54,182 nt of DNA from Myxococcales bacterium (GTDB lineage Bacteria > Myxococcota > Myxococcia > Myxococcales > JAJYLH01), in contig JAJYLH010000040.1 in assembly GCA_021787845.1 (NCBI GenBank), positions 1 through 54,182 on the forward strand, given 5' to 3'. Shown here in pieces: positions 12,434 to 52,065 of this stretch (its first letter is position 1; each line of letters opens with the position of its first letter). The notes beneath the pieces were generated by a model that was not told where the DNA came from, made no database searches, and saw nothing but the letters and a program-made list of their open reading frames with translations. The translations under genes were made by a program, and so were the position numbers.

Positions 12434-12439
12434 CCCGGC
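10918..12439. repeat. Long direct repeat, left copy (1,522 bp)
   Basis: Matches 18774-20295 at a constant offset of 7,856 bp. The forward translation and several translations of the opposite strand are identical in the two copies, and the lines I compared base by base showed no difference. The right edge lies six bases past the argS stop (TAGCCCGGC). Confidence 0.95.
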
Positions 12440-18773: not shown

Positions 18774-20289
18774 GCTCGCGCGCAAGCTCTTCCTTTCGTC
18801 GCTCGCGGAGGGGTTCGCGCAGCGCGAACGCTGGGGCAAGAGCCGCGAGCTCGCCGGCGAGCGCATCCTCGTCGAGTACGTCAGCGCCAACCCGACCGGC
18901 CCGATGCACGTCGGGCACGCCCGCGGCGCGGTCACCGGCGACATCATCGCGCGCTTGCTCAAGGCCGCGGGCGCCGAGGTGCACCGCGAGTACTACGTCA
19001 ACGACGCCGGGGTCCAGGTCCGGCATCTCGCGCACTCGGTCTATGTCCGGGCGCAGGAGATGGTGGTCGACACGCTCCCCTACGTCGGCTTCGTGCCGGA
19101 CCAGCTCGCGCCCGACGACTACCAGGGCGAATACATTATCGACGTCGCCCGGAAGCTGCTCGAGCCGCTCACCCGCCAGTCGCGCGAGGGGCTGATCACG
19201 AGCCCGTTCATCGAGATTCTTTCCTGGCTCCAAGACGCGGTCGTCGACCTCGTCATGAAAGAGATGATCGAGCCGGACCTGGCTCTGTTCAACATCAAGT
19301 TCGACAAGTTCTTCCGGGAGTCCGAGCTGCACGAGTCGGGGCGGGTCCGGGAAGCCATCAACACGCTGCGGGGCAAGGGGCTCGTCGAGAAGCGCGTCCT
19401 GCCGCCGCCCAAGGGACAGGAGCGCGCGGACGACGAGATTCCTCCGACCTCGGAGCCGCTTCTGGTGATGCGGACGACCGAGTTCGGCGACGACGTCGAC
19501 CGGCCGCTGGTCAAGCCGAACAACCAGTACACCTACTTCGCGGGAGACGTCGCCTACCATTGGGACAAGCTCCAGCGCGGGTACACGCGGCTCATCAACG
19601 TCTGGGGAGCGGACCACGCAGGCTACGTGCAGCGGGTGCGCGCGGCGATCGCGGCGCTCGGCTACGACCCCAAGGTGTTCGAGGTGGTGCTGGTGCAGAT
19701 GGTCAACCTGGTCCGCGATGGCGTGCCGGTGCGGATGGGCAAGCGCAGCGGCAACTTCGTCACCCTGCGCGAGGTCATCGAGGAGGCCGGCCAGGACGCG
19801 ACCCGCGTCTTCTTCACCGAGCGCACGAGCACCTCGCAGTTCGACTTCGACCTCGCGCTCGCGAAGAAGCAGGAGGACATCAACCCGGTCTTCTATCTGC
19901 AATACGGACACGCGCGCGCCGCGTCGATTCTACGCAAGGCGAGCGAACGAGGCATCGAGCTGCCGCAAGTGACCGCCGAGAACCTGCAAGGACTCGCGTT
20001 GCCCGAAGAGATGGACCTCGTCCAGCGGCTGCTCGCCTATCCCGAGGTCGTGACCGGCGCCGCCAAGACGCTGGAACCGCATCGGATCATCGCCTACCTC
20101 AAGGAGACCATCGGCGCCTTCCACTCCTACCTGACCAGGTACAAGAGCACCGAGAAGGTGCTGTCCGACGATCCGGTCAAGACCCGGGCGCGCCTCGCGC
20201 TGGTGCTCGCGCTCAAGCTCACCCTCGGGAACGCCCTCGACCTCATCGGCGTCAGCGCCCCGGAGCAGATGACGAGAACCGACGAATAG
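18774..20289 (+). pseudogene. argS: argS 3' fragment, apparently identical to the intact gene from codon 96
   Basis: Encodes ArgRS residues 96-599 with no visible change, but lacks the first 95 residues (tRNA D-loop-contacting N-terminal domain) and any native start. The open frame reaches back to 18688 only because it reads through the end of the previous gene in another frame. The HIGH motif is retained, so an internal start could in principle give a truncated protein, but it is unlikely to charge tRNA normally. The perfect match shows the duplication is very recent or is an assembly product. Confidence 0.9.
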
Positions 20290-20295
20290 CCCGGC
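18774..20295. repeat. Long direct repeat, right copy (1,522 bp)
   Basis: Second copy of 10918-12439. The left edge is abrupt: cargo sequence ending GCAGGCGGCCGAG joins argS at GCTCGCGCGCAAG. After the right edge (TAGCCCGGC) the sequence differs from that following the intact argS. Confidence 0.95.
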
Positions 20296-34477: not shown

Positions 34478-35599
34478 ATGCGATGGAAAAACGAGGCGGC
34501 CTGGTGGGCCGGGTGGGTAGTGGCGCTCCTGGTCGGCGGGTGCAGCGACAACGTCAAGACGCGCCAGACCCTGCCGCCGGGCGAGCGGATGGACATCTTC
34601 GACCAGGTGACGGTGGGCAAGGTCGACATCCTCTGGGTGATCGACAATTCGGGTTCCACCGCTGACAAGCAGGCCAACCTCGCGCGCAATTTCCACGCGT
34701 TCTTCGACTATCTGACGCAGGCGAAGGTCGACTACCACCTCGCGGTGACGACGACCGACGTGCAGACGGACGCGCCCTGCGGGACGCCGCCCAACACCGC
34801 GCCCTGTTCCAAGGGGCAGCTCTACGCGGCGCCGGGCGAGCCGACGGTGATCACGCCGGCGACGCCGGACCCGGTGGCGGCGTTCCAGAAGAACGTGGCG
34901 GTCGGGACGAGCGGGAGCGGTAACGAGGAGGGTCTGGAGGGGGCGCGGCTGGCGCTCCTGCTCAAGCCCGCGGGATTCCTCCGTTCCGACGCCTACCTGT
35001 ACCTGATTTTCGTCTCCGACGACGACGACCATTCCGACCCGGGCGAGCCGAAGTACTTCTACCGCTTCTTCGCGAGCGAGAAGGGCAAGGGCAACGAGGG
35101 GATGGTCTCCGCCGGGGCGATCGTGGGCGACGTGCCGAAGGGGTGCTACGAGCCGAACGGGGGCGAGGCGCGGGCGGGCACGCGTTACGTGCAGGTGGTG
35201 GACCTGATGGGCGGCCAGGTGGGGTCGGTCTGCTCGACGGAGTTCGCCGACGCGCTCGAGCAGATGGGCATCGACGCGGTGGGGCTTCGGCGCAAGTTCC
35301 AGCTCGCGAAGACCCCGGACGTTTCCTCGATCCAAGTGACCGTGAAATACCCCTGCGGGACCGCGAAGGTCGATCCCGGCTGCGAGAACAAGAGCTCGGA
35401 TTGCTCGGGCGGTGCGACGGGCGGCATCACCTGCGGGATTCCGGAGCTGGCGAACGCGCCGGACCCGCAGGCGCAGAACGCCGCCGACGGCTGGCTCTAC
35501 GAGCCGAGCTCGAACAGCGTCGTGTTCTATGGCAAGAGCATCCCACCGAAGGGCAGCGAAATCGACGTGCTCTACTGGGAGCAGGGGAAGAAGCCATGA
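34478..35599 (+). CDS. VWA-domain lipoprotein, first gene of a coupled operon
   Basis: 373 residues. Signal WAGWVVALLVGGC with lipidation at C22. A von Willebrand A domain follows: MIDAS motif DILWVIDNSGST (D56, S58, S60), a helix with KQANLARNFHAFFDYL, a central conserved region NEEGLEGARLALLL, and the strand YLYLIFVSDDDDHSDPG, whose acidic run may add metal ligands. VWA domains bind protein partners through a divalent cation; here the partner is likely another surface protein of the operon. The C-terminus (TVKYPCGTAKVDPGCENKSS ... SSNSVVFYGKSIPPKGSEIDVLYW) is a small Cys-containing beta domain. The stop overlaps the next start (ATGA). Confidence 0.85.
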   Translation: MRWKNEAAWWAGWVVALLVGGCSDNVKTRQTLPPGERMDIFDQVTVGKVDILWVIDNSGSTADKQANLARNFHAFFDYLTQAKVDYHLAVTTTDVQTDAPCGTPPNTAPCSKGQLYAAPGEPTVITPATPDPVAAFQKNVAVGTSGSGNEEGLEGARLALLLKPAGFLRSDAYLYLIFVSDDDDHSDPGEPKYFYRFFASEKGKGNEGMVSAGAIVGDVPKGCYEPNGGEARAGTRYVQVVDLMGGQVGSVCSTEFADALEQMGIDAVGLRRKFQLAKTPDVSSIQVTVKYPCGTAKVDPGCENKSSDCSGGATGGITCGIPELANAPDPQAQNAADGWLYEPSSNSVVFYGKSIPPKGSEIDVLYWEQGKKP

Positions 35600-37065
35600 G
35601 GCGGGCGATCATCGCGGCGGCGCTGGCGGTGGCCGCCTGCGGGCCGGGCAAGGTCAACGGCGCGAGCGCGAACCTCGAGCTTGCGCCGGCGTCGCTCGAC
35701 TTCGGCCAGCGCCCGGTGCTCGACGACCTGACGCTCAAGGTCCACCTGACGAACTACGGCCTCGCGCCGGTGAGCCTGACCAAGGTCTCGTTGCAGGGCG
35801 ACAGCGCTTTTACTCTCGTCGCGGCGCCGTCGCAGGTGACGGCGGGCGGCGAGGGCGACATCGCGGTCAACTTCGACCCGCAGAAGGAAGAGGCCTATTC
35901 GGGGACGCTGCTCATCGACACCGACGAGCAGGACAAGCTGCACGTCGAGGTGCCGCTGAAAGGGGCCGGGTCGACCGCCGGTTGCGCGACGGTGACGCCG
36001 GCGAGCCTCGACTTCGGGGTCGTCGGCGAGGGGCGCAGCAAGGTCCTGCGCGTGACGGTGACCTCTTGCGGTACCGCTGACCTGGTGATCAAGCACCTCG
36101 CTTTCGTGGAGCCGGGGACGAACGCGGCCTATGGCTTCGTCGGGTCGACGAGGACGCCGGTGACGCTCGCCGCCCACGCCACGGGCCAGAACGACGCCTC
36201 GGCGGACATCAACGTCGTCTTCCAGCCGACCCAAGCGACCGTCGGGACCGACATGACGGGCACCCTGGAAATCGACACGACCGATCCGGAGAACCAGGTG
36301 GTGAAGATTCCGATGACCGCGACCTTGAACCAGAAGCCCATCGCGGTCTGCGGCCAGGACCGGCAGGTCGCGCCGGGCACCACGGTGACGCTCGACGGAT
36401 CGAAATCGCACGACCCCGACGGGACCATCGCGAGCTATCTGTGGACGCTCAAGGTGCCGCAGGGAAGCGCCGCCAAGCTCGACAAGCCGACGGATGTGAA
36501 GCCCTCCTTCACCACCGACCAGCCGGGCGACTACGACGCGCAGCTCGTCGTCGTCGACAACGAGGGGCTCTCGAGCGACCCGGTGACCTGCACCGTCACC
36601 GCGGTCACCGCGCAGAAGCTCGTGATCGAGCTGATCTGGGATTCGCCGCTGGCGGACCTCGACCTGCACTTCCTCGAGCACCAGAGCGACTTCGACACGC
36701 CGATGGACTGCTTCTGGGCCTACCCGCACCCGGCCTGGTCGAGCGACCCCAGCCAGGACCCGGTCGACCTGGGCGACAAGCTCGCCGGCTTCGGGCCGGA
36801 GTACGTCGTCTGGGACCATCCGCTCGACGGCAGCTACCTCATCGACGTCGACTACGTCTCCCCCAACGGCGACCAGAACACCAAGGTGAACGCGACCATT
36901 CGCATCTACATGTACGGCGTCCTCGTGCAGGAGCTCGACCACGAGATGGACAAGTCGGACCAGAGCTGTCCGGCGAGCGACCCGCACTGCGCGGTGTGGA
37001 CGGCGGGCACCATCGCGTGGCCGACCGGCGTCGTCACGCCGGGGAGCGCCGGGAGCGCGCCCTGA
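35596..37065 (+). CDS. Lipoprotein with two ASH-type Ig domains and a PKD domain
   Basis: 489 residues. Signal RRAIIAAALAVAAC. Two tandem ASH/choice-of-anchor-D beta-sandwiches follow: LELAPASLDFGQRPVLDDLTLK ... LLIDTDEQDKLHVEVPLKGAG and ATVTPASLDFGVVGEGRSKVLRV ... LEIDTTDPENQVVKIPMTATL. Next is a PKD domain (VTLDGSKSHDPDGTIASYLW ... GDYDAQLVVVDNEGLSSDP). A C-terminal domain has LVIELIWDSPLADLDLHFLEH ... DGSYLIDVDY, a YfaP-like fold seen in bacterial surface proteins. All are protein- or glycan-binding modules with no catalytic site. Coupled at both ends: ATG in the previous TGA, and its TGA overlaps the next ATG (TGATG). Confidence 0.82.
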   Translation: MRRAIIAAALAVAACGPGKVNGASANLELAPASLDFGQRPVLDDLTLKVHLTNYGLAPVSLTKVSLQGDSAFTLVAAPSQVTAGGEGDIAVNFDPQKEEAYSGTLLIDTDEQDKLHVEVPLKGAGSTAGCATVTPASLDFGVVGEGRSKVLRVTVTSCGTADLVIKHLAFVEPGTNAAYGFVGSTRTPVTLAAHATGQNDASADINVVFQPTQATVGTDMTGTLEIDTTDPENQVVKIPMTATLNQKPIAVCGQDRQVAPGTTVTLDGSKSHDPDGTIASYLWTLKVPQGSAAKLDKPTDVKPSFTTDQPGDYDAQLVVVDNEGLSSDPVTCTVTAVTAQKLVIELIWDSPLADLDLHFLEHQSDFDTPMDCFWAYPHPAWSSDPSQDPVDLGDKLAGFGPEYVVWDHPLDGSYLIDVDYVSPNGDQNTKVNATIRIYMYGVLVQELDHEMDKSDQSCPASDPHCAVWTAGTIAWPTGVVTPGSAGSAP

Positions 37066-38528
37066 TGCTCCGCTCTTCACGCGCGCTCTTCGTCGCGACC
37101 GCCCTGGTCGCCACCGGGTGCAAGCCGGCGAAGAAGCCGCCGCCGGTGCCGGAGTGCTCGGCGAAGAAAGCCTGCACCGGCGGCCTCGTCTGCGTCGCGG
37201 GCTCTTGCGAGCCGTGCAGCCGCGACAACCAGTGCGCGCGCGACGAGATGTGCCATCCGATCAAGCGCCGCTGCGTCCTCCGGCCCTGCTTCGGCCACGA
37301 GTGCAAGGTCCACGACGACTGCCCGCTCGGCGAATACTGCGTCCAAGGCTTGTGCCTCGAGCCCGACGTGGTCACCCCCGACGGCTGCCAGGTGGTGAGC
37401 TGCGCCAACGGCGAGAGCTGCAACACCGGCCAGAAGTGCAACCCGGTCAATCTGGTGTGCGAGGAGGACTTGGGCTGCCAAGAGGACAGCGACTGCCCGA
37501 CCGGCGAGAAGTGCAACGTCGCCGCCGGCGAGTGCGAAGCCGGCTGCACCGCCCAGAACGCGGCGACCGTCTGCGGCGTGAAGAAGGTCTGCTACGAGAG
37601 CCGGTGCGTCGACTGCGTCAAGCCCTCCGACTGCGGTCCTGGTCTCTCCTGCGACGCCACGACCAACCTCTGTGTCAGCCAGACCTCCTGCATCTCCAAC
37701 CGCGACTGCGCGCCGCCGCTCGTGTGCAACCAGGTCACCAAGGAGTGCACGGTCGACCCGGGGCCATGCCTGTCGGCGGAGGACTGCGGGCAGAACGAGA
37801 CCTGCGAATTGTCCACCGGCCAGTGCGTGCCGGCGACCTGCCAGCCGGACCGCTGCGACCCGAACCAGACGATGGCGACCGCGGCGCCGCTCGCGCAGGG
37901 CCTGACGCCGAACCTGACCCTCTGCCAGAACGAAGCCGACTACTTCAAGATCGCGCTGGAGAACGGGGACGAGCTGAGCGTCATCATCGACGTCGACCCG
38001 CTGCTCTCCTTCCACGTGGACATCCTCGACGGCGCCGGCGACGTGGTCGGCTCGGGCGACCTGGCGGCGGACATCGTCGCGTCGGTCGCCGGCGACTACT
38101 ACGTCGAGCTCACCTCGCAGGACGCCTACGTCGCCTATGGCATCCACGCGACGGTCGCCCGCAGCATCCCCTGCCCGGCCGACCCGGGCGAGCCGAACGA
38201 GGATTTCCAGCACGCGACGGCGCTGCCGGTGGGCGACAGCTACGGGTTCACCATCTGCCCCGGGGACGTCGATTACTACGCGGTAGCGGTCCAGCCTGGC
38301 GACACCGTACAAGTGGAGCTTTCGAGCACCCCGGACAACGGGCTCTTGACGCTGACGATGTACGACTCGACCGGCACCCATGAAATCGCGCAGAGCTCCA
38401 CCACCGACCCGGTGCAGACGGTCCAGGCGACGGTGGTGACCGGCAATCGGGTGTACGTCGAGGTCGCGGGGAGCGATCCGACGGTGCAGAACAGCTACGA
38501 CCTGCACGTCGCGGTGTCGGCGCCGTGA
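37065..38528 (+). CDS. Cys-rich lipoprotein with C-terminal PPC domains
   Basis: 487 residues. Signal SSRALFVATALVATGC. Residues ~30-260 are about ten short Cys-rich repeats (CTGGLVCVAGSCEPC; CPLGEYCVQGLCLE; CPTGEKCNVAAGECEAGC; CGPGLSCDATTNLCV), which should be disulfide-bonded outside the cytoplasm. Residues ~275-487 hold two pre-peptidase C-terminal-like beta domains (ADYFKIALENGDELSVIIDV; GEPNEDFQHATALPVGDSYG ... GDVDYYAVAVQPGDTVQVEL). PPC domains usually accompany secreted proteases, but there is no protease part here. Middle gene of the coupled operon; its TGA overlaps an in-frame GTG of the next gene. Confidence 0.8.
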   Translation: MLRSSRALFVATALVATGCKPAKKPPPVPECSAKKACTGGLVCVAGSCEPCSRDNQCARDEMCHPIKRRCVLRPCFGHECKVHDDCPLGEYCVQGLCLEPDVVTPDGCQVVSCANGESCNTGQKCNPVNLVCEEDLGCQEDSDCPTGEKCNVAAGECEAGCTAQNAATVCGVKKVCYESRCVDCVKPSDCGPGLSCDATTNLCVSQTSCISNRDCAPPLVCNQVTKECTVDPGPCLSAEDCGQNETCELSTGQCVPATCQPDRCDPNQTMATAAPLAQGLTPNLTLCQNEADYFKIALENGDELSVIIDVDPLLSFHVDILDGAGDVVGSGDLAADIVASVAGDYYVELTSQDAYVAYGIHATVARSIPCPADPGEPNEDFQHATALPVGDSYGFTICPGDVDYYAVAVQPGDTVQVELSSTPDNGLLTLTMYDSTGTHEIAQSSTTDPVQTVQATVVTGNRVYVEVAGSDPTVQNSYDLHVAVSAP

Positions 38529-38542
38529 GGAAGGAGATGGCC

Positions 38543-41500
38543 ATGCGCGAGGGCGTCGGCGATCGGTTGGCGCGAGGGACGGTCCTCGTCTGGCTGGCGG
38601 CAGCGCTCCTCACTGCCTGCGGGCCGTCGAGCTCCGGCCACCCCGACAGCGGACCGAACGTCCCCGATGGATCGGTGCAGCCCGACGGGGGGACCCCGGA
38701 CGGGGGCGGCGATGGCGGCGCCGACGCGGGCGACGGGGGCGCCGACGGCGGCTCGGTCCCGGTGGTGCTCGGTTCGCTGACGCCCCCCCGCGGCGCTCTC
38801 GAGGGGGGCACGCTGGTCGTGCTCCGGGGCTCGGGCTTCGTCAACGGCTTCGCGCAGAACGGCGGGCTCGAGGCGTCCGCGCAGACCACGGTCACCTTCG
38901 GTGGGAACGCCGCGGTGAGCGTCAACGTCATCGACGACGTGGTGATGGAAGTGAAGACCCCGCCGGGCACCGCGGGCGAGGCCGACGTCACCGTCACCAA
39001 TCCGAACGGCTCGGCCTCCTGCTCGAAGTGCTTCCGATATTTCCAGGCGATTTCGCTGACCCGCCTGAGCCCGGCGCAGGGCTCGACCCGGGGCGGCGAC
39101 ACCCTGACGCTGACCGGGAAGGGGTTCGTTCCCAGCGTGATGGTGCTGGTCGGCGGGAACGCGGCGACGAGCGTGCAGGTGGCGCCGGACGGCACGAGCC
39201 TGACCGCGGTGACGCCGCCGGGAACCGCGGGCAGCGCCGACGTGGGGGTCATCGGCAAGGACAGCTCGGCGTTCCTCTACCGCGCGTTCGTCTACGTCGC
39301 GCCGATGGAGGTGACGAGCGTGTCGCCGCCGGACGGACCGGTCGCGGGCGGCACCAGCGTCACGCTCTCGGGCGGCGGATTCACCTCCGACGCGGGCGTT
39401 TCGTTCGGCGGCGTCGCGGCGACGACGGTCCAAGTCCAGAGCGCGACCACCCTCGTGGCGACGGCGCCGGTGGCGACGCAGGCGGGCGCAGTCGACGTCA
39501 CGGTGACCACCCGGCGGGCGACGGCGACGCTCCCGGGCGCGTTCGCCTACACCGACGATTCCCGGACCCTCGCGCTGTACACGGTGGCGCCCAGGCAGGG
39601 GCCGACGGCCGGGGGCACCTGCGCGCAAGGGCCGTCGACCTGCGTCGCGCTCACCGGAGCGGGCTTCTCGAGCGCTTCCGGGCTCCAGGTGCGCATCGGC
39701 AGCTCGGACGTGGCGAGCCCGACCGTGGTGGACGATCACCTGATCGACGCCGACCTGCCGCCGGGCCCGCCGGGGGTCGTCGATGTCCAGGTGCGCTCCA
39801 CCTCCGGAGCGGCGGTCTTGACGGGCGCCTTCGCCTACGTCGACCCGCTCTCGCTCAGCGGCATCGCTCCCGCCGAGGCGGACGCGAGCGCCAGCCCGCC
39901 GGTGACCGCGACGATTCAGGGCACCGGGCTTTCCAGCTCCTGCGAGGTGTGGATCGGCGGCGAGCCGGCGACCGTCACCCAAGCGGCGAGCGATGGGACG
40001 AGCTTGACGGTAACGGTGCCGCTCGGCAGCCCCGGCGCCCGCGACGTGCGCGTCACCTGCGGCGATCCGGCCTCGCCCACCTATCAGGAGGCGACCTTGG
40101 CGGGCGCCTTCACCTACACCTCGCTCCTCTCGATTCTGCAGGTCGATCCGGATGTCGGCGCCATCGCCGGGAACACCCCGGTGACGGTCTACGGCTCCGG
40201 GTTTCAGACGAGCCTGCAGGTCCTCTTCGGCCCGAATCCGGCGACGAAAGTGACCGTGGTCAGTCCGGTGATCGCCCAGGTTTCGACCCCGCGCGGGAAC
40301 GTGGGAATGGTCGACGTGACGGCCCAGAACGACGCCACCCACCAGGCGGTGCTGAAGGCGGGGTACGGCTACTACGACCCGACCAACATCAACGGCGGCG
40401 GCTCGGACGGCGAGATGCGGGGAATCCTCAACGTGACCGTGCTCAACTCGACGCCGGGCATGAGCGGTCCCGTTCCCGGGGCGACCATCGTCGTCAACGA
40501 CGATCAGCTCACCGGCCTCACCGACGACCGGGGGCAGGTCGACTTCGCCGACCCGGCGCTGTTGAAGCCGGTCACCATCACCGGGACCAAGCCGAAGTTC
40601 GCGGCCTCGACCATCGCGCACATCGACGCGCGCGACGTGACGCTCTACATGCAGATGAACGACGGCGGCCCACCGAGCCCGCCCCAGCCGGGACAGCCGC
40701 CGGCGACCTTCACCGGCACCGTCTGCGGTTTCAAGGTCGCGCCGGATTTCCAGCTCCAGAGCGGGCAGGACCTGGAGGCGCGGGTCTTCATCTCCTATCC
40801 GTACGTCTACGCGGCGCCGCCGTTCGGCTTCCCCGAGACCGGCGCCAAGGTGGCGAGCGACTGCGGCAGCTTCGACATCAGCACCACCCAGTTCGGGCCG
40901 CTCGCGCTCTACGCGCAGTTCGGGGTTGCCGACAACGTGAATTCGACCTTCACCCCGCTGCTGATGGGCGTCACGCGGGGCCTGACCGCTTCGCCCGGGG
41001 CGACGACGACTGCCAACATCGTTCTCGACATGCACCTCGACATGTCGATTCCGATCACGGTGGTGCCGGCCGACGCGCCGCCGGGACAGATGGTCGTCAA
41101 CGCGGTCTACAGCTATCTCGACCTCGGCGGGGAGGGCGTGGTGCCGCTCGCCGAGACCGAAAGCACTGACAACACCTTCGTCTTCGCGAACCACCCGCGG
41201 GTCGATGGCGATGGGCTCTTGTTCCTGAACCTCGCCGGCGTGCTCGACCCGGCGAGCGGGAGCGTCAGCGCGCCGTATTCGTTCTTCTACCGGCGGCAGT
41301 ACGGCGATCCGGAAGCGGGGGTGACGATCGGGCCGATGCTCGCGTTCAGCCAACTCACGAGCCCGCCGGAGGGCGGCACCTTCGCGGGGAACCTCGCCTG
41401 GACCTTCCTCGGCGGCCAACAGGCGGACGTGGCGCAGGTGAGCGTCGAGGAGCCGGCCGGGCTGTCGATGAAGCCGATCTGGGACGTGGTGGTTCCGGGA

Positions 41501-41686
41501 AGCGACCTCTCGGTCGCGCTGCCGCAGAGCGCGCTCGGGAGCATCGACCCCGGCCAGACGATGTTCTGGACTCTGACCACCGCGGACACCCCACGGTTCG
41601 ACTTCAATGATTTCGGCTACCAGCAGCTCTACGTGAACTCCTGGACCAGCTTCACCCAGAACTACGCGTCCTTCAACACGCCATGA
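38543..41686 (+). CDS. Large lipoprotein with about six IPT/TIG repeats
   Basis: 1,047 residues. I place the start at ATG 38543 because AAGGAG ends six bases before it; the open frame reaches GTG 38525. Signal VLVWLAAALLTAC, then a ~40-residue PDGG/DGGADAG linker, then tandem IPT/TIG Ig-like repeats opening LGSLTPPRGALEGGTLVVLR, LTRLSPAQGSTRGGDTLTLT, VTSVSPPDGPVAGGTSVTLS, LYTVAPRQGPTAGGTC, SGIAPAEADAS and ILQVDPDVGAIAGNTPVTVY, each ~90 residues. A carboxypeptidase-regulatory-like domain (VPGATIVVNDDQLTGLTDDR) and a ~400-residue beta-rich C-terminus follow. It is likely a rod-like surface adhesin or scaffold. Largest member of the operon; ATGA overlap with the next gene. Confidence 0.85.
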   Translation: MREGVGDRLARGTVLVWLAAALLTACGPSSSGHPDSGPNVPDGSVQPDGGTPDGGGDGGADAGDGGADGGSVPVVLGSLTPPRGALEGGTLVVLRGSGFVNGFAQNGGLEASAQTTVTFGGNAAVSVNVIDDVVMEVKTPPGTAGEADVTVTNPNGSASCSKCFRYFQAISLTRLSPAQGSTRGGDTLTLTGKGFVPSVMVLVGGNAATSVQVAPDGTSLTAVTPPGTAGSADVGVIGKDSSAFLYRAFVYVAPMEVTSVSPPDGPVAGGTSVTLSGGGFTSDAGVSFGGVAATTVQVQSATTLVATAPVATQAGAVDVTVTTRRATATLPGAFAYTDDSRTLALYTVAPRQGPTAGGTCAQGPSTCVALTGAGFSSASGLQVRIGSSDVASPTVVDDHLIDADLPPGPPGVVDVQVRSTSGAAVLTGAFAYVDPLSLSGIAPAEADASASPPVTATIQGTGLSSSCEVWIGGEPATVTQAASDGTSLTVTVPLGSPGARDVRVTCGDPASPTYQEATLAGAFTYTSLLSILQVDPDVGAIAGNTPVTVYGSGFQTSLQVLFGPNPATKVTVVSPVIAQVSTPRGNVGMVDVTAQNDATHQAVLKAGYGYYDPTNINGGGSDGEMRGILNVTVLNSTPGMSGPVPGATIVVNDDQLTGLTDDRGQVDFADPALLKPVTITGTKPKFAASTIAHIDARDVTLYMQMNDGGPPSPPQPGQPPATFTGTVCGFKVAPDFQLQSGQDLEARVFISYPYVYAAPPFGFPETGAKVASDCGSFDISTTQFGPLALYAQFGVADNVNSTFTPLLMGVTRGLTASPGATTTANIVLDMHLDMSIPITVVPADAPPGQMVVNAVYSYLDLGGEGVVPLAETESTDNTFVFANHPRVDGDGLLFLNLAGVLDPASGSVSAPYSFFYRRQYGDPEAGVTIGPMLAFSQLTSPPEGGTFAGNLAWTFLGGQQADVAQVSVEEPAGLSMKPIWDVVVPGSDLSVALPQSALGSIDPGQTMFWTLTTADTPRFDFNDFGYQQLYVNSWTSFTQNYASFNTP

Positions 41687-42840
41687 AGAGATCTTCGACC
41701 CCCGCGATGCGCGCGCTCGGATGGCTGGCGGCGGCGCTCTCGGCCCTCGCGGGCGCCGGGTGCAGCGGCAACACCAAGACCCATGCGGCCTGCCAGTCGG
41801 ACGCCGATTGCGGCAAGTTCTCTTGCGTCCAGGGCACCTGCATGTGCACCGCCGACGTCCAGTGCGGCGCGGGCCAAATGTGCAACTCGGCCGGCTATTG
41901 CCAGCAGGTCCGCGGGTGCCAGTCCACCCTCGATTGTCCGAAAGGACAGTTCTGCGACATCACCACCGGCAACTGCCTGGACGAGAACCGCTGCACCGTG
42001 GACGTCCAGTGCCCCTTCGGTCAGGTGTGCGATCAGATCCGCTTCGAGTGCGTGGACGGTTGTCGGGACAGTGGCGATTGCAATCTCGGCTCGGTCTGCG
42101 AGTGCCCCGACGGGCAGCCGCGCTGCGCCGATCCAAAGAACTGCCCGACGGGCTTCGAAGGTTGCTCGCAGCTCGGAACCTGCGCGTCCGGCCCCTGCGC
42201 CGACAACTCCTATTGCAAGTACGGCCAGATCTGCCAGTCGCAGGGCCAGGGCGCGCCGGACCGGTGCGTCAACGACACCTCGGGGCCGTTCTGCCAGCCG
42301 TGCACCATCGGCCCCGGCCAGGACTACTGCCCGGGCGACGCGGCGAACTTCTGCCTCGTCGACACGAGCAAGGCCTATGGCTCCTACTTCTGCGGCGTCC
42401 AGTGCCAGCAGGATACGGACTGCCCCTGGGGCTACGGCTGCGACGACGTGCTGATTCTCACCCAGCAGACCTGCGGTTCGGCCAATCAGTGCCAGACCCA
42501 CGACGACATGCCTTGCCAGACTGACCAGGACTGCCCGGGCGGCGAATGCGACACCTCGACCCATCTGTGCCGGAGCATCTGCATTGCCAACGAAGGCGAC
42601 GTGCAGGGGTTCTGCACCTGCTTGGAGGACAGCGACTGCCCGATCGACACCTGCGGGAGCGACGGCCACTGCACCATCTCCCGCAAGATGTGCGACGCGA
42701 ACAACCCCTGCCCGAACATCTACTGCAAGACCTCGACCGATCCCCAGACCAAGAAGACCGTCGGATACTGCTTCATCGGTCGCAACTGCGCGCCGTCCGA
42801 GGGTCTGAGCTGCGATCAGATCACCAACCAGAGCCCATGA
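41683..42840 (+). CDS. Cys-rich repeat lipoprotein
   Basis: 385 residues. Signal LGWLAAALSALAGAGC with a lipobox. Nearly the entire mature protein consists of short Cys-rich repeats of the form CxSDADCGxxxC ... CxxGxC (CQSDADCGKFSCVQGTCMC; CQSTLDCPKGQFCDITTGNC; CTVDVQCPFGQVCDQIRFEC; CQQDTDCPWGYGC; CLEDSDCPIDTC), about ten in all. Similar repeats form the first half of the third gene of the operon. The dense disulfides suggest a stiff extracellular module. No enzymatic motif. ATG lies in the previous gene's ATGA and its own TGA overlaps the next ATG. Confidence 0.8.
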   Translation: MKRSSTPAMRALGWLAAALSALAGAGCSGNTKTHAACQSDADCGKFSCVQGTCMCTADVQCGAGQMCNSAGYCQQVRGCQSTLDCPKGQFCDITTGNCLDENRCTVDVQCPFGQVCDQIRFECVDGCRDSGDCNLGSVCECPDGQPRCADPKNCPTGFEGCSQLGTCASGPCADNSYCKYGQICQSQGQGAPDRCVNDTSGPFCQPCTIGPGQDYCPGDAANFCLVDTSKAYGSYFCGVQCQQDTDCPWGYGCDDVLILTQQTCGSANQCQTHDDMPCQTDQDCPGGECDTSTHLCRSICIANEGDVQGFCTCLEDSDCPIDTCGSDGHCTISRKMCDANNPCPNIYCKTSTDPQTKKTVGYCFIGRNCAPSEGLSCDQITNQSP

Positions 42841-43274
42841 GAGTCGCCATCCTGTTGATCGTCGCCGCGCTCTGGCCGGCAAGTGCGAAGGCGCAGGCCG
42901 TCCCGCGAACGCTCCTGCCGAGCGATGGCGCCGCCGTTCGGCTGATCTCTCCCGGCGCCGGCGCGGGCGTGGCGCACGGGTCGAATCCGACACCAGTCCA
43001 GACAGGCAAGCAAGACGGGGTTCGGACTCCCTGGATCGGACTGGGCGGGTTGTGGCTGGGCGCGTTGGCGCTCGGCGTGACCGCGGGCGTTCTGGCTTAC
43101 CAGGTCAACAGCGGCATCGGGCAGCTCGACGCCCGCTACGCCGCGGTGGGCTTCGCGCCATCGGATTTCCAGGCGGCGCGGGACCTCCACACCAAGCGCG
43201 ACGTCGCCTGGGGACTCGCCGGAGGCTCGGCCGCATTGGCCATCACCAGCGTGGTGCTCGTCATCCGGTTCTGA
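42837..43274 (+). CDS. Small exported membrane protein, last gene of the coupled operon
   Basis: 145 residues. An N-terminal signal peptide (RVAILLIVAALWPASAKAQA) is followed by a flexible Gly/Pro segment and two hydrophobic helices (WIGLGGLWLGALALGVTAGVLAY and WGLAGGSAALAITSVVLVI) separated by ~45 residues (QVNSGIGQLDARYAAVGFAP). I do not recognise a family. Position at the end of a coupled run of lipoprotein genes suggests a membrane anchor or assembly factor for that group. It overlaps the previous stop by four bases. Confidence 0.7.
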   Translation: MRVAILLIVAALWPASAKAQAVPRTLLPSDGAAVRLISPGAGAGVAHGSNPTPVQTGKQDGVRTPWIGLGGLWLGALALGVTAGVLAYQVNSGIGQLDARYAAVGFAPSDFQAARDLHTKRDVAWGLAGGSAALAITSVVLVIRF

Positions 43275-45691: not shown

Positions 45692-46702
45692 TCAGTCGGT
45701 GCGGACTCCCTTCACCAGCTCGTCGACGACGGTCACCGCGTTGACGCCTTCGCTCTCAGCGTGGAAGTTGGTGACGATGCGGTGGCGGAGGATCGGCTTC
45801 GCGAGCGCCTTCAAGTCTTCGAGAGAGGCGGCGGTGCGGCCGTGCAGGACCGCCCTCGCCTTGCCCGCGAGCACCAGCGCCTGGCTCGCGCGGGGGCCGG
45901 CGCCCCACTGGACGAACTCGCGGACGATCGACGGCGCCGAGGCTTCCGCGGGCCGGGTGCGGCGAACGAGGTCGACCGCCGCGCGCACCACGTGGTCCGC
46001 CGCCGGCACCCGCAAGACCAGGTCCTGCAGCTCGCGAATCGCCTCGGGCGAGAGCACTTTCGACAGCGGCGCCCGACTGCCCCCGGTGGTCGCCTTCACG
46101 ATCGCCACCTCCTCGTCGTGCGACGGATAGCCGACGTCGATCATGAACATGAAGCGGTCGAGCTGCGCCTCGGGAAGGGGGTAGGTGCCCTCCTGCTCGA
46201 TGGGATTCTGGGTCGCGAAGACGAGGTACGGCATGTCCAGCGGATAGGTCTGGCCGCTCGCGGTGACCCGGTACTCGGCCATCGACTGGAGGAGCGCCGC
46301 CTGCGTCTTCGGCGGGGTGCGGTTGATTTCGTCGGCGAGGATGATGTTCGCGAAGACCGGCCCGCGCACGAAGCGGAAGGTACGCTTCCCGGTCGTCACG
46401 TCCTCCTCGAGGATGTCGGTGCCGGTGATGTCGCTCGGCATCAGGTCGGGCGTGAACTGGATGCGGTTGAAGGTGAGGTTCAGCACGTCGGCGAGCGTCG
46501 AGATGAGCAACGTCTTCGCGAGCCCCGGGACGCCGACGAACAGCCCGTGGCCGCGGGAAAAAAGCGCGATCAGCAGGTGGTCGACCACCTCGCTCTGCCC
46601 GATGATGCGCTTGCCGATTTCGCCGACGATCTGATCGCGCGCGCGCGCGAGCGCCTGCGCCTGCGCGAGGTCGCGTTCTTGTTCTTGCGTTTCGATGGCC
46701 AC
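45692..46702 (-). CDS. MoxR-family AAA+ ATPase
   Basis: 336 residues. Walker [11 protein letters not shown] (~57-66), Walker [24 protein letters not shown], sensor region [25 protein letters not shown] and lid domain all fit MoxR ATPases, which act as chaperones in maturation of VWA-containing or other protein complexes. Usually MoxR is followed by DUF58 and VWA genes; here it is instead preceded by a gluzincin/PEGA gene (51-base gap) and a DUF4175-like gene. The VWA lipoprotein operon lies about 11 kb away on the other strand; a link would be speculation. Confidence 0.95.
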
Positions 46703-46753
46703 TCTGGTCCTCGTCCTTCCCGCGGGCGGTCGTGCCCGCGCCGGTTCATCGCT

Positions 46754-48616
46754 TCACTTGTGAAAGAGCGTCACCTCGTCGGCCGCGAAGTCGAGGGTGT
46801 GCTCGATGGTCTGGCCGCCGGGCAGCACCAGCTTCACGTCGTGCTTTCCCGCCGGCAACGGATGGTCGAACACCGGCGAGGTCAGGTGGGTGTCGGCGCC
46901 GTCGACGAACACCTCGCCCCCCGCCGGCGCCTCGATGCGCAGGTACGACCGCGCGACGGAGAGCGGCGGCGCTGGCGCACTCCAGGTGGGCTTCCCGCGT
47001 ACGATGATCTCGATCTCTTCCGATTCCTGGGCTTGGAGCGCCTCGTTCTGCGTCGCTTGGGCCGCGGCGAAGAGACCGGCGTGGATCTCGCGGTCGAACG
47101 GGTCGCGCCGGTTCGCGATCAACAGATGCTTGATCGCCTGCGCGTACTGTCCGCTGCGGACGAGCAGGAGCCCGTAGAGCAGGTGGTTCGTCTCGTCCTC
47201 GGGGAAAGCGGCAAGGCTCTCGCCCAGCACCTGTGCCGCCTGACCGTCGAGGTGGAGGTCCTCCAGCGTCAGCGCGTACTTGCGCGCCAGAGGCGGATAG
47301 GTGTCGCCGACCAGCGCCACCGCCTTCTCGTATTCGACCTTCGCGGCATGGAGGCGACGGTGCGCGCGCAAGAGCTCGCCCAGGTGCGCGTGCTTGCGCG
47401 CGTCTTCGTTCGGCAAGAGCCCGAGCTCGCCGCGATCGTAATCCTTCACCCGCTGCGCCTGCGTCCGCTGCTCGCTCGGGTCGTCGAGGAAGACGAGCTT
47501 CTCCACCGCCGGCGCAAGCTTGGGCGGCCCTTGCGCGGCGAGGTGCGCCTTCCAGTCCCGCACGAACTTCGAGAACGGCTCGCCCATCGCCCGCGCAATC
47601 GCCTCGTGGTCGGTGTCGCCCTTCTCGAAGCCGTCGAGCACCGCGCGGATGCCCGCCATCCCCTTCTTCTGGCGGATGAACAGCATCGCGGTCACCACTT
47701 CGGCGTACGCGATCGCCGCCTCCTCCTGGGAGGGCAGGAGCGCCATCGAAGGGCTCATCGCCTTGAAGGTCACCAGCTTGTGCGCCTTCAACGCCTTCCA
47801 CAAGAGCAGCCGCTGAGCAGGACCGTAGGAGAGCCCCGCGGCGCCCCGCCAGCGCGTCTCCTCGAGCTTCGCGATGCCCTCGTGCACCCAGATGGGCACC
47901 CGGTTCCCGGTCTTGTGCATGATGAAGTAGTGCGTCAGCTCGTGGTTGAGCGTGTCCTGCCAGTCGTAGCCGCGGAGGAGCGCGCGCGGGGTGGTGACGA
48001 GCAGCCGGTTATATTTGCACAGGGCGATGGTGCCGGTCGTGTGCACCGCCTCGTCGCTCAAGCTCGAGACGCGGGCGAGCGCGCCGGGGCTGGAGAGGAA
48101 TTCGACCCGAATCTTCTCCTTCGGCGTGTAACGCAGGTCGCGCGAGAGAGCCGAGTAGGAGCGCTCCAGAGTGTCGAGCGCGTAGGGCACGAGCGCCGCG
48201 TCCTTGCCGGGGTGGTAGCGGACGACGAAGTGCGCGCTCTCTTCGGCGACGCTGCCCTCCATCTCGCTGCGCGCGGCGAGGGCGAGCTGGTAGTCCTCGC
48301 TGTTCTCCGCGCCCGACCCGAGCGCCTGCGAATAGAGCTTGACCGCGCGGCCGTAGTGCCCTTCGAGGAACGCGACCCGCGCCTCGAGGTAGATCGTCCC
48401 CGGATCGTCCGGCTCGGTCTTCTCCAGGTCGCGCACCAGCTTCTCGGCGCCGAGGACGTTCCATTGCTGGAGGTCCTCGAGAATCGCGCCCTGGGTGCTG
48501 GAAAATCGCGGCGCGTTCTCGTCCGCGTGCGCGCCGCCGATGTCGTCCACCTGCGCCCGCGCGGCCGGCGCCGAGGCGACGAGGAGCGCAGTCGCCATCC
48601 ACCCGGCGCGCCTCAC
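46754..48616 (-). CDS. Secreted gluzincin-like peptidase with TPR and PEGA parts
   Basis: 620 residues. Signal peptide (MATALLVASAPAARAQ). Residues ~40-120 are TPR-like helices. The zinc site HELTH in DTLNHELTHYFIMHKTG (~225) is followed by WVHEGIAKLEE, whose Glu is the third ligand of gluzincins; this fits the peptidase MA-like family. A second TPR-like region (~430-540, HLGELLRAHRRLHAAKVEYEKAV; HLLYGLLLVRSGQYAQAIKHL) leads to a C-terminal PEGA domain (LRIEAPAGGEVFVDGADTHL ... LPAGKHDVKLVLPGG). It likely acts in the periplasm on envelope proteins. The ATG overlaps the stop of the DUF4175-like gene (ATGA). Confidence 0.82.
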   Translation of the reverse strand: MRRAGWMATALLVASAPAARAQVDDIGGAHADENAPRFSSTQGAILEDLQQWNVLGAEKLVRDLEKTEPDDPGTIYLEARVAFLEGHYGRAVKLYSQALGSGAENSEDYQLALAARSEMEGSVAEESAHFVVRYHPGKDAALVPYALDTLERSYSALSRDLRYTPKEKIRVEFLSSPGALARVSSLSDEAVHTTGTIALCKYNRLLVTTPRALLRGYDWQDTLNHELTHYFIMHKTGNRVPIWVHEGIAKLEETRWRGAAGLSYGPAQRLLLWKALKAHKLVTFKAMSPSMALLPSQEEAAIAYAEVVTAMLFIRQKKGMAGIRAVLDGFEKGDTDHEAIARAMGEPFSKFVRDWKAHLAAQGPPKLAPAVEKLVFLDDPSEQRTQAQRVKDYDRGELGLLPNEDARKHAHLGELLRAHRRLHAAKVEYEKAVALVGDTYPPLARKYALTLEDLHLDGQAAQVLGESLAAFPEDETNHLLYGLLLVRSGQYAQAIKHLLIANRRDPFDREIHAGLFAAAQATQNEALQAQESEEIEIIVRGKPTWSAPAPPLSVARSYLRIEAPAGGEVFVDGADTHLTSPVFDHPLPAGKHDVKLVLPGGQTIEHTLDFAADEVTLFHK

Positions 48617-51600
48617 TTGACGAGCTCCTCGTAGTACTGCCGCACGCGCTGCTTGTAGGGGCCGGGCGTCCGGTCGCGCATCGCCTTCAGGAGCTCCTCG
48701 CGGAATTCCGCCGGCGCCTTGCTCTGGTCCGCGCCGGGAATCTCGACCTTTTCCTGCTCACCGGCACCGCTGCCGTCGGTCCCGCCGCTCGAGCCGCCGC
48801 CGCCTTCGCTGCCGAACGGCATCGGAATCCCCCCGGAACCGCTGCCGCCCTTCTGCGAGCGCATCGCCTGCTCGAACGAATGGAGCTGGTCGAGCGCCTG
48901 CTGCTCCCGCCCCGAAGCGCCGCGGGGGTTCGCCTGCCCGAGCTGGCCTTTCGCCGCCTGCATCCGCTGCGCCGCCTGCCGGAGCATCTGCCCCTGCTGC
49001 GGCCCGAAAATCGGCACCTCGCGCCCGATGGCCTCCATCTGCTGCTGGAGGTCCTGGGTGCGCTTCTGGACGGCGCCCTGCTCCTTCGCGAGCTGGCTCA
49101 TCTTCTGTCGCTCGGCGGCGGTCGGCGGCTGGCGCGCCTGGTCGAGCAGCTTCTTCAAATCGCGCACCACGTTCTGGGTCGGCTGGTGCGCGCCCTTCGC
49201 GTGGTTCGAGTCCGCCACCAGCTCCTGATCGTCCGGCAGGTACCGGAACTGCGGCGGGATGTTGCGCTCCGAATCGAGCTCGTCCTCGATCGCCTCCTCC
49301 TTCGACAACGCCTGCTGCGCCGAGTCGAGCGCGCCCTCGAAGTCGTGCGCGTCGAGCGCCTGCTTCGCCTCCTCGAGCCGCTGCTCCGCGTAGCGCAGGT
49401 CGGTCGCGAGCTGGAGCTGCTGGACGGTGCCCCCTTGAACGCTCTTGAGCTGCGCTTGCGCTCTCGCCAGGCGTTGCTCCTGCTTCTGGATGAACTGCTG
49501 CCCGAGCTTCTGCACCTCCTTCTGCGCCGCCTGCTCCTCGCGAGCCCGCATCGCCCGGGTCTTCTCTTTGAGCCGCCTCTCGTCGCGCTCGACGTCCAGG
49601 AGGTTGCTCGCGAGCTTCTGGAGCTCGAGGCCGATCCGCTGGTTGCGTGCGCTCTGCTCCCCGGCAGCGCCCTCGAGCTGCTTCTGCATCTGGGCGAGGT
49701 CCTTCTGCATCTTCTCGAGGTCGCTGAGCGCCTTCTTGGTCTTCCCTTGCGCGAGCTCCTGTTGAATCTCGTCGAGCTCGTCCATCAGGTCGTGCCCGGC
49801 GCTCATCTGCCGGAGCGCTTCCAGGTTCAGGTGCTGGTCCTGGATGCCGCGCTGGAGCTTGCGCATCTGTTGGAAGATCGCGGCGAGCCGCTCCTTCAAG
49901 CGCGCGATCTCGCCCAGGATTTCGTTCCGGACCGCGTCGCTCGGCGCCTTCTCGTACCGCTCGATCAACCGCGCGAGCTCGGCGCGCCCTTCCTCGAGCT
50001 GCTTCGCGAGCTGGGCGAGGTCCAACAGCTTGCGCCGATCGATCAGGTCCTCCAAATAGAGCACGTCGTTCTCTTCTTCCGCGACCTCGCGCCCGAGCAC
50101 CACCGCGAACGTCCGCGCGAGATTCGCCCCTCGCCGCCGCACCAGCACCTGCCGCATCGCCGTCGTGTGCTCGACGACCACCCGCAGCCGGCGCCCGACG
50201 TGCTCCAGCGCCCGGCCGATCTCCTTCGGCGCCCGCTTGTCCTTCAAGAGCTCCTGCGCGAGCACCAGCATTCCCGTCGACACGTCCTGCATCCGCCCGT
50301 CAGTCGCGCCCGTCGCGGTCGCCCACGCGCTCGACACGTTCTCTCCGGACGCGCCCGGCGGCGGCTCGTCCAGACGGTCAGCAAGACCGCTCAAGAGCTT
50401 CTTCCACTGCTCCTCGGCCTTCTGGAGCACCTCCTGGTCGTGCTCGACCTGGCTGAAGACTTTGAGCTCGTGGGAAGCGGAGACGCCCACCTTCGGCCCG
50501 CTGACGTCGTCGTTGTCCGTCGCCTCGATCCGGTAGATCACCCGGTCGCCGGGCTTCAGGTTCAAGGCCGACAGATCCCAATCGACCGCGCCACGCTGGA
50601 ACCTCGACATCCCGACGAAGGAGGCGATGCGCTTGTGCACCTCGGGAGTGCCCCTGCCCAGCGAGTAGACCAGCTCGAGCTTCGTCAGCCCGTAGTCGTC
50701 GCTCGCCGCGTAGCCGACGGTGATCGTTTCCTTTCCCTCGATCACCAGCTTCGCCTTCGGCTGGGTGATTCTCACCTCCGGCGGCTCGTCCGGCTCGATC
50801 GCGATCGGCCGCGCGGGACCCTCCGCCACCGTCTTCCCGGTCGGCGTCGCGTAGCGAAAACGCCACTCGCCCGGCCCCTGGACGAGGAAGGTCCCGGACA
50901 GAGCGCGACCGCTCACGGTCAGCGGCACCGCCGTCGCCCCCAGCATCGCGAACGCCCGCGCGACGTCGCGGTCGGCCACCGCTTTCACCGTGACGAGCGT
51001 TCCCTTCGGCGCCCGGATGTCGCCGCCGGTCTCCGCGATGGTCTTGTCCGGCCGGTGCATGTGCGCCGGGTAGCGGTAGGTCAAGCTGATGTCGCCGGCG
51101 ATGGGCTCGGTCGCGAAGAGCGTCGCCGCTTTCGCCTGCGGACGGAACGCGAGGTACCGGTAGGCGTCGCGCACCCGCTCGCCACCGAAGAGCCAGAAGA
51201 GCCCGTGGAGCAGGAGCGCCGCCGCCAAGCCGAGGGCCGCCGCCCGCACCGGCCTCGCGCTCAGCGCCGGCCGATGGTCGACCGCCGCGGCGACGACCCC
51301 CATCCGCGCGACGTGCGCCCGGACGAACGCGGCCGATATCGGCGCCACGAGCCCCCGCTCATCCCGCGCGGCCTTACCCCGCTCATCCCGCGCGGCCTTA
51401 CCCCGCTCATCCTGAGCGGAGTCGAAGGAGAGCGCCCGCGAAAGCTCCACCGCGGAGACGAAGTCGCTCGCGTCCTGCGGCGAAGCCCTTCCCAGCGCCC
51501 GCGCCGCCTGGACCTCGTCCGCGAGCGTCCGATGGCCCAGAACGAGCGCGAAGACGAAGCCGACGAGCAGCGCGACCCCCGCGGCGACGAACCCGGCCGG

Positions 51601-52065
51601 CCGCGCCCACTGCGCCTGGAGCGCGGTCAGCGCCGTCGCCACCAAGAGGAGCAGCACCGCCGCCGTCAGCCCGAAGAGCACCTGGCGGGCGCGCTCGACG
51701 CGGGCCGCCCGCTTGCGCAGCCGGTCGAGCAGCGTCGCGAGCGGCAGCGCCAGCTCCCGGACGAGAGCGGTGCCGGGAGTCGAAGTGGGCGCGGGCGCGG
51801 GCAGGGGCCGGGGCGCTGGCTGGGGTTCGGTCTGAATCGGCGAAGCTCCGTTCCCGAAGATAGCGAAGCCCGGGCGGCCTCCGGCGCGAAAAACGAGCGA
51901 GCCGCCGCCCGGATTCCGGCCAGAGGCGGGCCGGCCGATTCTAGGGTTGGCCCGGCGAACGCGCACCGTTTCGGCGAGGCCGTGCCAGCCGCGGTGGGCG
52001 CCTCGTGGCCGCCGTCGGCGCCTGGAAGGCGAGCGTCTGCCATCCAGCGGCGCCACCGCCCGCAC
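48613..52065 (-). CDS. Large DUF4175-like coiled-coil membrane protein
   Basis: The open frame gives 1,150 residues, but the first ~100 (Arg/Pro-rich) are probably not translated; a GTG at 51966 is an alternative and the true start is unsettled. TM helices follow (QVLFGLTAAVLLLLVATALT; FVAAGVALLVGFVFALVLG; AALGLAAALLLHGLFWLFG). Next is a beta-rich region (ISLTYRYPAHMHRPDKTIAE ... VRITQPKAKLVIEGKETITV), then ~500 residues of Gln/Glu/Lys-rich coiled coil (EEGRAELARLIERYEKAPSD; DLEKMQKDLAQMQKQLEGAA) and a Gly-rich tail. DUF4175 proteins are often next to MoxR, as here. Residues ~213-235 (SFDSAQDERGKAARDERGK) come from a repeat array inserted in frame. Confidence 0.78.
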   Translation of the reverse strand: MRAVAPLDGRRSPSRRRRRPRGAHRGWHGLAETVRVRRANPRIGRPASGRNPGGGSLVFRAGGRPGFAIFGNGASPIQTEPQPAPRPLPAPAPTSTPGTALVRELALPLATLLDRLRKRAARVERARQVLFGLTAAVLLLLVATALTALQAQWARPAGFVAAGVALLVGFVFALVLGHRTLADEVQAARALGRASPQDASDFVSAVELSRALSFDSAQDERGKAARDERGKAARDERGLVAPISAAFVRAHVARMGVVAAAVDHRPALSARPVRAAALGLAAALLLHGLFWLFGGERVRDAYRYLAFRPQAKAATLFATEPIAGDISLTYRYPAHMHRPDKTIAETGGDIRAPKGTLVTVKAVADRDVARAFAMLGATAVPLTVSGRALSGTFLVQGPGEWRFRYATPTGKTVAEGPARPIAIEPDEPPEVRITQPKAKLVIEGKETITVGYAASDDYGLTKLELVYSLGRGTPEVHKRIASFVGMSRFQRGAVDWDLSALNLKPGDRVIYRIEATDNDDVSGPKVGVSASHELKVFSQVEHDQEVLQKAEEQWKKLLSGLADRLDEPPPGASGENVSSAWATATGATDGRMQDVSTGMLVLAQELLKDKRAPKEIGRALEHVGRRLRVVVEHTTAMRQVLVRRRGANLARTFAVVLGREVAEEENDVLYLEDLIDRRKLLDLAQLAKQLEEGRAELARLIERYEKAPSDAVRNEILGEIARLKERLAAIFQQMRKLQRGIQDQHLNLEALRQMSAGHDLMDELDEIQQELAQGKTKKALSDLEKMQKDLAQMQKQLEGAAGEQSARNQRIGLELQKLASNLLDVERDERRLKEKTRAMRAREEQAAQKEVQKLGQQFIQKQEQRLARAQAQLKSVQGGTVQQLQLATDLRYAEQRLEEAKQALDAHDFEGALDSAQQALSKEEAIEDELDSERNIPPQFRYLPDDQELVADSNHAKGAHQPTQNVVRDLKKLLDQARQPPTAAERQKMSQLAKEQGAVQKRTQDLQQQMEAIGREVPIFGPQQGQMLRQAAQRMQAAKGQLGQANPRGASGREQQALDQLHSFEQAMRSQKGGSGSGGIPMPFGSEGGGGSSGGTDGSGAGEQEKVEIPGADQSKAPAEFREELLKAMRDRTPGPYKQRVRQYYEELVK
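51353..51429. repeat. 24-bp tandem array joined to repeat family C copy 3, inside the DUF4175-like gene
   Basis: Two identical 24-bp units (CCCCGCTCATCCCGCGCGGC then CTTA) at 51353 and 51377 lead into a canonical family C unit at 51405-51429 (CATCCTGAGCGGAGTCGA). On the coding strand this reads SAQDERGKAARDERGKAARDERG. Same architecture as 647-812. Confidence 0.9.

Follow-up and report, generated by a model that had tools for sequence, protein, structure and literature searches.

A lipoprotein gene cluster kept or lost almost as one block in myxobacteria and headed by a predicted integrin-like VWA protein

Introduction

Bd0875 of Bdellovibrio is a lipobox-bearing protein whose VWA domain sits within a small domain, and its MIDAS aspartate is required for prey entry (PMC11003981). 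CglD and CglB of Myxococcus are outer-membrane gliding lipoproteins that likewise bear a VWA domain. A VWA/I-like domain inserted in a beta-sandwich is also the layout of the integrin beta headpiece (PDB 9p95, 3ze2, and 6om1).

Here we analyze a locus in which a lipoprotein with this type of layout is encoded at the head of a run of five lipoprotein genes. The locus lies in the window, the whole 54,182-nucleotide stretch of contig JAJYLH010000040.1 from a Myxococcales bacterium. We found no description of such a cluster in open-access papers.

Results

Gene organization

Six genes, all on the plus strand, occupy positions 34478-43274. The first, g1 (34478..35599), encodes a VWA (integrin I-like) lipoprotein of 373 aa. 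Its VWA domain (residues ~45-280) lies within a small beta-rich domain formed by the N- and C-terminal parts, and the MIDAS motif DNSGS occupies residues 56-60. Gene g2 (35596..37065, 489 aa) encodes an ASH-ASH-PKD lipoprotein with a conserved C-terminal domain (~340-480), and g3 (37065..38528, 487 aa) encodes a Cys-rich lipoprotein with 41-44 conserved Cys and a PPC-like C-terminal part. The product of g4 (38543..41686, 1047 aa) is a lipoprotein in which six IPT/TIG domains are followed by a transthyretin/CnaB-like domain and then by Ig/MG-like beta domains. Another Cys-rich lipoprotein, with 53-59 Cys at mostly invariant positions, is encoded by g5 (41683..42840, 385 aa). It is overlapped by g6 (42837..43274), the gene for a small protein with a signal peptide, two further hydrophobic segments, and no Cys.

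Read directly, the junction overlaps are ATGA (g1/g2, g4/g5, and g5/g6) and TGATG (g2/g3), and g3 and g4 overlap only if g4 starts at GTG 38525. ATG 38543 is the better start for g4, because AAGGAG, a better ribosome site, is positioned six bases upstream. The frames and overlaps are as given in the preliminary description, including the dependence of the g3/g4 overlap on the GTG start. The five lipoboxes described there are also found, each of g1-g5 having a signal peptide and a lipobox Cys, and the reported lack of a catalytic motif agrees with searches by domain models, which found no enzyme domain in the proteins of the set.

Of 67 junctions in 20 orthologous loci (~31-45% protein identity), 52 overlap, counted with a start choice that favours overlaps (among lipobox-compatible starts in other genomes, the one nearest the upstream stop). 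Therefore, the overlaps within g1-g5 exceed chance expectation. Co-expression of g1-g5 from overlapping genes is likely. A fixed stoichiometry had also been deduced from the coupling, and this step does not hold; overlaps favour co-expression and do not set stoichiometry. Promoter and terminator scans gave signals at or below chance.

Third-position GC backs the coding status of g1, g2, g4, and g5, and the predicted coding status of g3 rests on conserved orthologues. Domain models identify six TIG repeats in g4 (E 5e-53), PKD and ASH/choice-of-anchor-D above cut-off in g2, and weak matches to PPC in g3 (2e-3) and to Cys-rich repeats. None of the Pfam VWA models matches g1, which is assigned as a VWA protein by NCBIfam matches (the MIDAS-adhesin and CglD models) together with its predicted structure.

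Lipoprotein sorting rules come from M. xanthus, another genus than that of the window organism: Lys at +2 is favoured by inner-membrane lipoproteins and Ala at +7 by matrix lipoproteins (PMC3222651). The mature N-termini of g1-g5, as read from the window sequence, have no Ala at +7 and have Lys at +2 only in g3, and this Lys is missing from most g3 orthologues. In our reading, the products of g1-g5 are probably located on the outer-membrane surface.

Conservation across Myxococcota

We searched g2 in 79 genomes of the order. Each carrier has one full-length orthologue, separated from domain-only matches by an E-value gap of ~40 orders of magnitude. In 20 loci read from this survey, the order g1-g2-g3-g4-g5 is found wherever the contig permits, except in two genomes, one with g4 and g5 relocated (G015) and one with g1 inverted (G020).

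We then screened 195 genomes of the phylum with a separate profile for each gene, independently of the others. Strong full-length matches to g1-g4 are present in 66 of the 195, and 60 of these 66 have all four genes; the missing members are mostly in fragmented assemblies. Same-strand adjacency holds for g1-g2 in 60/64 genomes, for g2-g3 in 64/65, and for g3-g4 in 57/62. Where adjacency fails, the cause is mostly a contig end or a broken frame, and in two cases a true rearrangement. Nearly every carrier in the order has just one full-length copy each of g2, g3, and g4. The same g1-g5 order is found in Archangium and Myxococcaceae assemblies, in Hyalangium versicolor, and in family f11, which belongs to another class, so the order is kept across two classes. 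The unit is absent from family f6 and from many f4 genomes. In dozens of myxobacteria, g1-g5 are kept or lost almost as one block, with presence and absence calls that hinge on score thresholds and draft assemblies. Although cluster members were the source of the profiles, these also recovered non-cluster copies (a second g5, and the relocated genes of G015). Therefore, the searches are not circular.

On a tree of g2 and g3, families f3, f4, f7, f8, f9, and f10 are each monophyletic, with f11 used as the root. Because the families are monophyletic, the unit looks old and mostly vertically inherited, with losses. The preliminary description had named neighbourhood conservation as a check on its proposed complex, scattered genes in related genomes counting against it; g1-g5 stand together and in order in almost every carrier.

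The proposed complex had six members, and the conserved, co-inherited part of it is g1-g5. At related loci no counterpart of g6 lies beside g5, and across the 79 genomes g6 has two weak matches only. By this comparison, g6 is outside the conserved unit, which comprises the five genes g1-g5. As a sixth member, g6 is ruled out, being no conserved neighbour of g5 and having only the two weak matches.

In deeper lineages, parts of the set occur as recurring pairs: one to three g5-like genes after g1 (L101-L103, L107, and L108), g3 after g2 (L153-L155 and L160), and g5 after g4 (L137). Recurring pairs, and later a five-gene run, are the pattern that would be expected of a growing complex whose partners bind. 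In such a complex, g1 and g5 would be the old core pair, and g2-g3 and g4 would be modules added later.

Several f4 genomes carry a paralogous VWA gene near a g5-like Cys-rich gene (G123:C12:294893-296812, G161:C207:2511-4726, and G162:C15:28469-30600). Because the paralogous pair recurs in f4 genomes, VWA plus Cys-rich protein is a recurrent module. Other paralogues and variants are also seen. Several f4 genomes have a second full-length, solitary g5 paralogue without adjoining g1-g4 (L089 9600-10733, L091 9434-10681, L105 9053-10198, and L106 9248-10396), G012 has a second full-length g4 immediately after g5 (L057 16451-19783), and two f9 members have a Cys-rich insertion within g4.

Structural comparison with described systems

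The AlphaFold2 model of g1 (mean pLDDT 82.6) has the VWA domain inserted in a small beta domain that is contributed by both chain ends. Among solved structures, the model is most similar to integrin I domains (Z 16.3, 3.1 Å over 187 residues), and along residues 31-370 it aligns with integrin beta headpieces. The predicted topology of g1, a VWA/I-like domain inserted in a beta-sandwich, is thus like that of the headpiece, with ~13-15% identity and an rmsd of 6-7 Å over two domains, a match at the level of the fold that does not imply common descent or function. A sequence search of solved structures gave no match.

Compared with the published description of Bd0875, the g1 model resembles the MIDAS-family lipoprotein adhesins Bd0875 and Bd1483 in its lipobox, its VWA domain inserted in a small beta domain, its length (~375 aa), its DxSxS motif, and its several Cys (PMC11003981). 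In particular, the lipobox Cys22 of g1 is invariant among orthologues. The Bd0875-type model NF052240 gives 67.5 bits (E 1e-18), which does not reach the equivalog cut-off of 700 bits. At most, g1 would belong to the wider MIDAS-adhesin family, and it is not an equivalog of Bd0875 or of CglD. Unlike Bd0875 and Bd1483, g1 is located in a five-lipoprotein cluster, and some of its orthologues have no MIDAS.

The model of the g4 tail (pLDDT 83.8) has a transthyretin/CnaB-like domain followed by Ig- or MG-like beta domains. The first tail domain matches transthyretin-like domains and the NTE domains of SusC levan/dextran transporters (Z ~10-12 over ~80 residues, 77 for Z ~12).

Loss of the metal site

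The MIDAS of the VWA protein had been called intact. This is correct for the window, and DxSxS is intact in 36 of 43 distinct g1 proteins and lost in the other 7. All five f8 genomes that we examined, f5, and one f9 genome lack the motif, and the cluster is retained in each case. Because the motif is lost while the cluster stays, metal binding is not what holds the set together. As judged from these sequences, the metal site would be dispensable for whatever keeps the cluster, and metal-dependent binding could not be the common function.

A few conserved positions in the other proteins change together with the motif. With 20 orthologues, g3 E148 and g5 D117 seemed to be lost alongside the MIDAS. 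With ~40 orthologues, three of ~550 conserved g2-g5 columns follow its loss, two of them acidic positions in g3 (148 and 379), in a sample that holds only about three independent MIDAS losses. Most lineages with the MIDAS have acidic residues at g3 positions 148 and 379 (window 37506-37508 and 38199-38201), and every lineage without it differs there; G008, whose MIDAS is intact, nevertheless carries Gln at 148. The two positions are a weak lead to a candidate ligand of the MIDAS.

Flanking genes

The flanks of the cluster vary, and no flanking gene is conserved throughout. In families f3, f5, f8, f9, and f10, a convergent gene for a TadA/CpaF-family ATPase lies just downstream of g5 (L041 17895-19898, L053 497-2035, L039 1016-2206, and L099 7543-9270). 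Three of these loci were read further out; the neighbours of the ATPase gene, named from sequence, are gyrase- and ATP synthase-like genes, and no further Tad genes are seen. No such ATPase gene lies near the cluster in the window. Given the gyrase- and ATP synthase-like genes around it, rather than Tad genes, we read the ATPase gene as a probable shared ancestral address and not as a partner. The cluster has no firm link to any gene for an outer-membrane channel or a motor.

Elsewhere in the window, the minus strand at 45692-52065 encodes a MoxR ATPase, a TPR/peptidase-MA-like protein, and a DUF4175 protein, the last two overlapping briefly. An exact direct repeat of 1,522 bases in argS is present at 10918-12439 and 18774-20295, with unrelated flanks. 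The first copy belongs to a complete arginyl-tRNA synthetase gene (10634-12433), and the second is without the first 95 codons. A recent duplication or an error of assembly would explain the repeat.

Discussion

Because this lipid-anchored set is kept or lost almost as a block, the products of g1-g5 very probably work jointly on the cell surface. That they form one multi-subunit lipoprotein assembly on the outer-membrane surface, contacting another cell, a matrix, or a substrate, has in our estimate about an even chance of being right. We infer physical association, surface exposure, and adhesion, the last by analogy from the domain type and one distant precedent.

In such an assembly, the five genes would probably be translated together, and each product would pass through Sec export and lipidation to the outer membrane. 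Contact would be made by g1 as the head subunit, whose VWA domain is set into a small beta domain in the manner of integrin beta chains and Bd0875. The g4 protein, with six IPT and further beta domains, and the ASH-ASH-PKD protein g2 would serve as stalk subunits, and g3 and g5 would be disulphide-rich rods. More specifically, and only tentatively, the cluster may encode an unnamed outer-membrane surface machine of Myxococcota, with five lipoproteins around an integrin-like head, that is ancestral and has been lost in many larger-genome lineages of Myxococcaceae.

The likeliest explanation is a complex for contact or adhesion, with binding of matrix or glycan as its main rival. According to this rival, the surface assembly would bind or take up a polymer or glycan, or build extracellular matrix, instead of mediating adhesion. 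The beta-sandwich rods g2, g3, and g4 are of types common among glycan-binding and matrix proteins, and the first tail domain of g4 resembles transthyretin-like and SusC NTE domains. However, the latter resemblance is generic, and genes for TonB-dependent receptors, SusD, hydrolases, or polysaccharide functions are not seen recurring beside the cluster. We regard this rival as unlikely.

An accessory role for a type IVa or Tad/FlaI-like pilus, with the lipoproteins at or beyond the pilus port, appears improbable. It would account for the ATPase gene next to g5 in several families, and PilQ is found in nearly all cluster carriers. However, PilQ is equally common in genomes without the cluster and is therefore uninformative about a pilus link, and the ATPase gene is convergent, has gyrase- and ATP synthase-like neighbours, and has no counterpart beside the window cluster.

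The five lipoproteins could also act independently under a shared promoter, as a regulon and not a complex. Co-inheritance could also reflect shared regulation, and these genomes are rich in such domains, with 30 matches to g2 domains in that of the window alone. Against this, g2-g4 are full-length, near single-copy, gained and lost together, and kept in order over two classes, and we consider independent action quite improbable.

It is very improbable that the cluster is an alternative outer-membrane component of the Glt/Agl gliding machinery, comparable to CglB and CglD. In favour of this idea, CglB and CglD are also outer-membrane lipoproteins, and g1 matches the VWA part of the CglD model NF033765 (E 2e-10), but with 38.9 bits against a cut-off of 400 bits. 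In six cluster carriers of 91-98% completeness (G000, G004, G007, G029, G035, and G044), GltJ (NF033761) has weak, partial matches that do not convince (best E 1e-10 to 1e-27). Conversely, more than 50 genomes, among them every member of genera g21 and g32, exceed the cut-off for GltJ and have no g2 orthologue. This distribution of GltJ rejects identity with the Glt gliding machine and disfavours the gliding role that had been among the earlier suggestions.

Our preferred reading remains the contact or adhesion complex. The lineages in which the set is kept and the MIDAS metal site is lost are a natural experiment. Myxobacterial genomes contain very many VWA, IPT, PKD, and Cys-rich lipoproteins, few of which have a known role. 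Near block-wise inheritance over two classes turns such common domains into one testable apparatus, and its absence from many lineages with the Glt gliding marker suggests that studies of one model species may have missed it.
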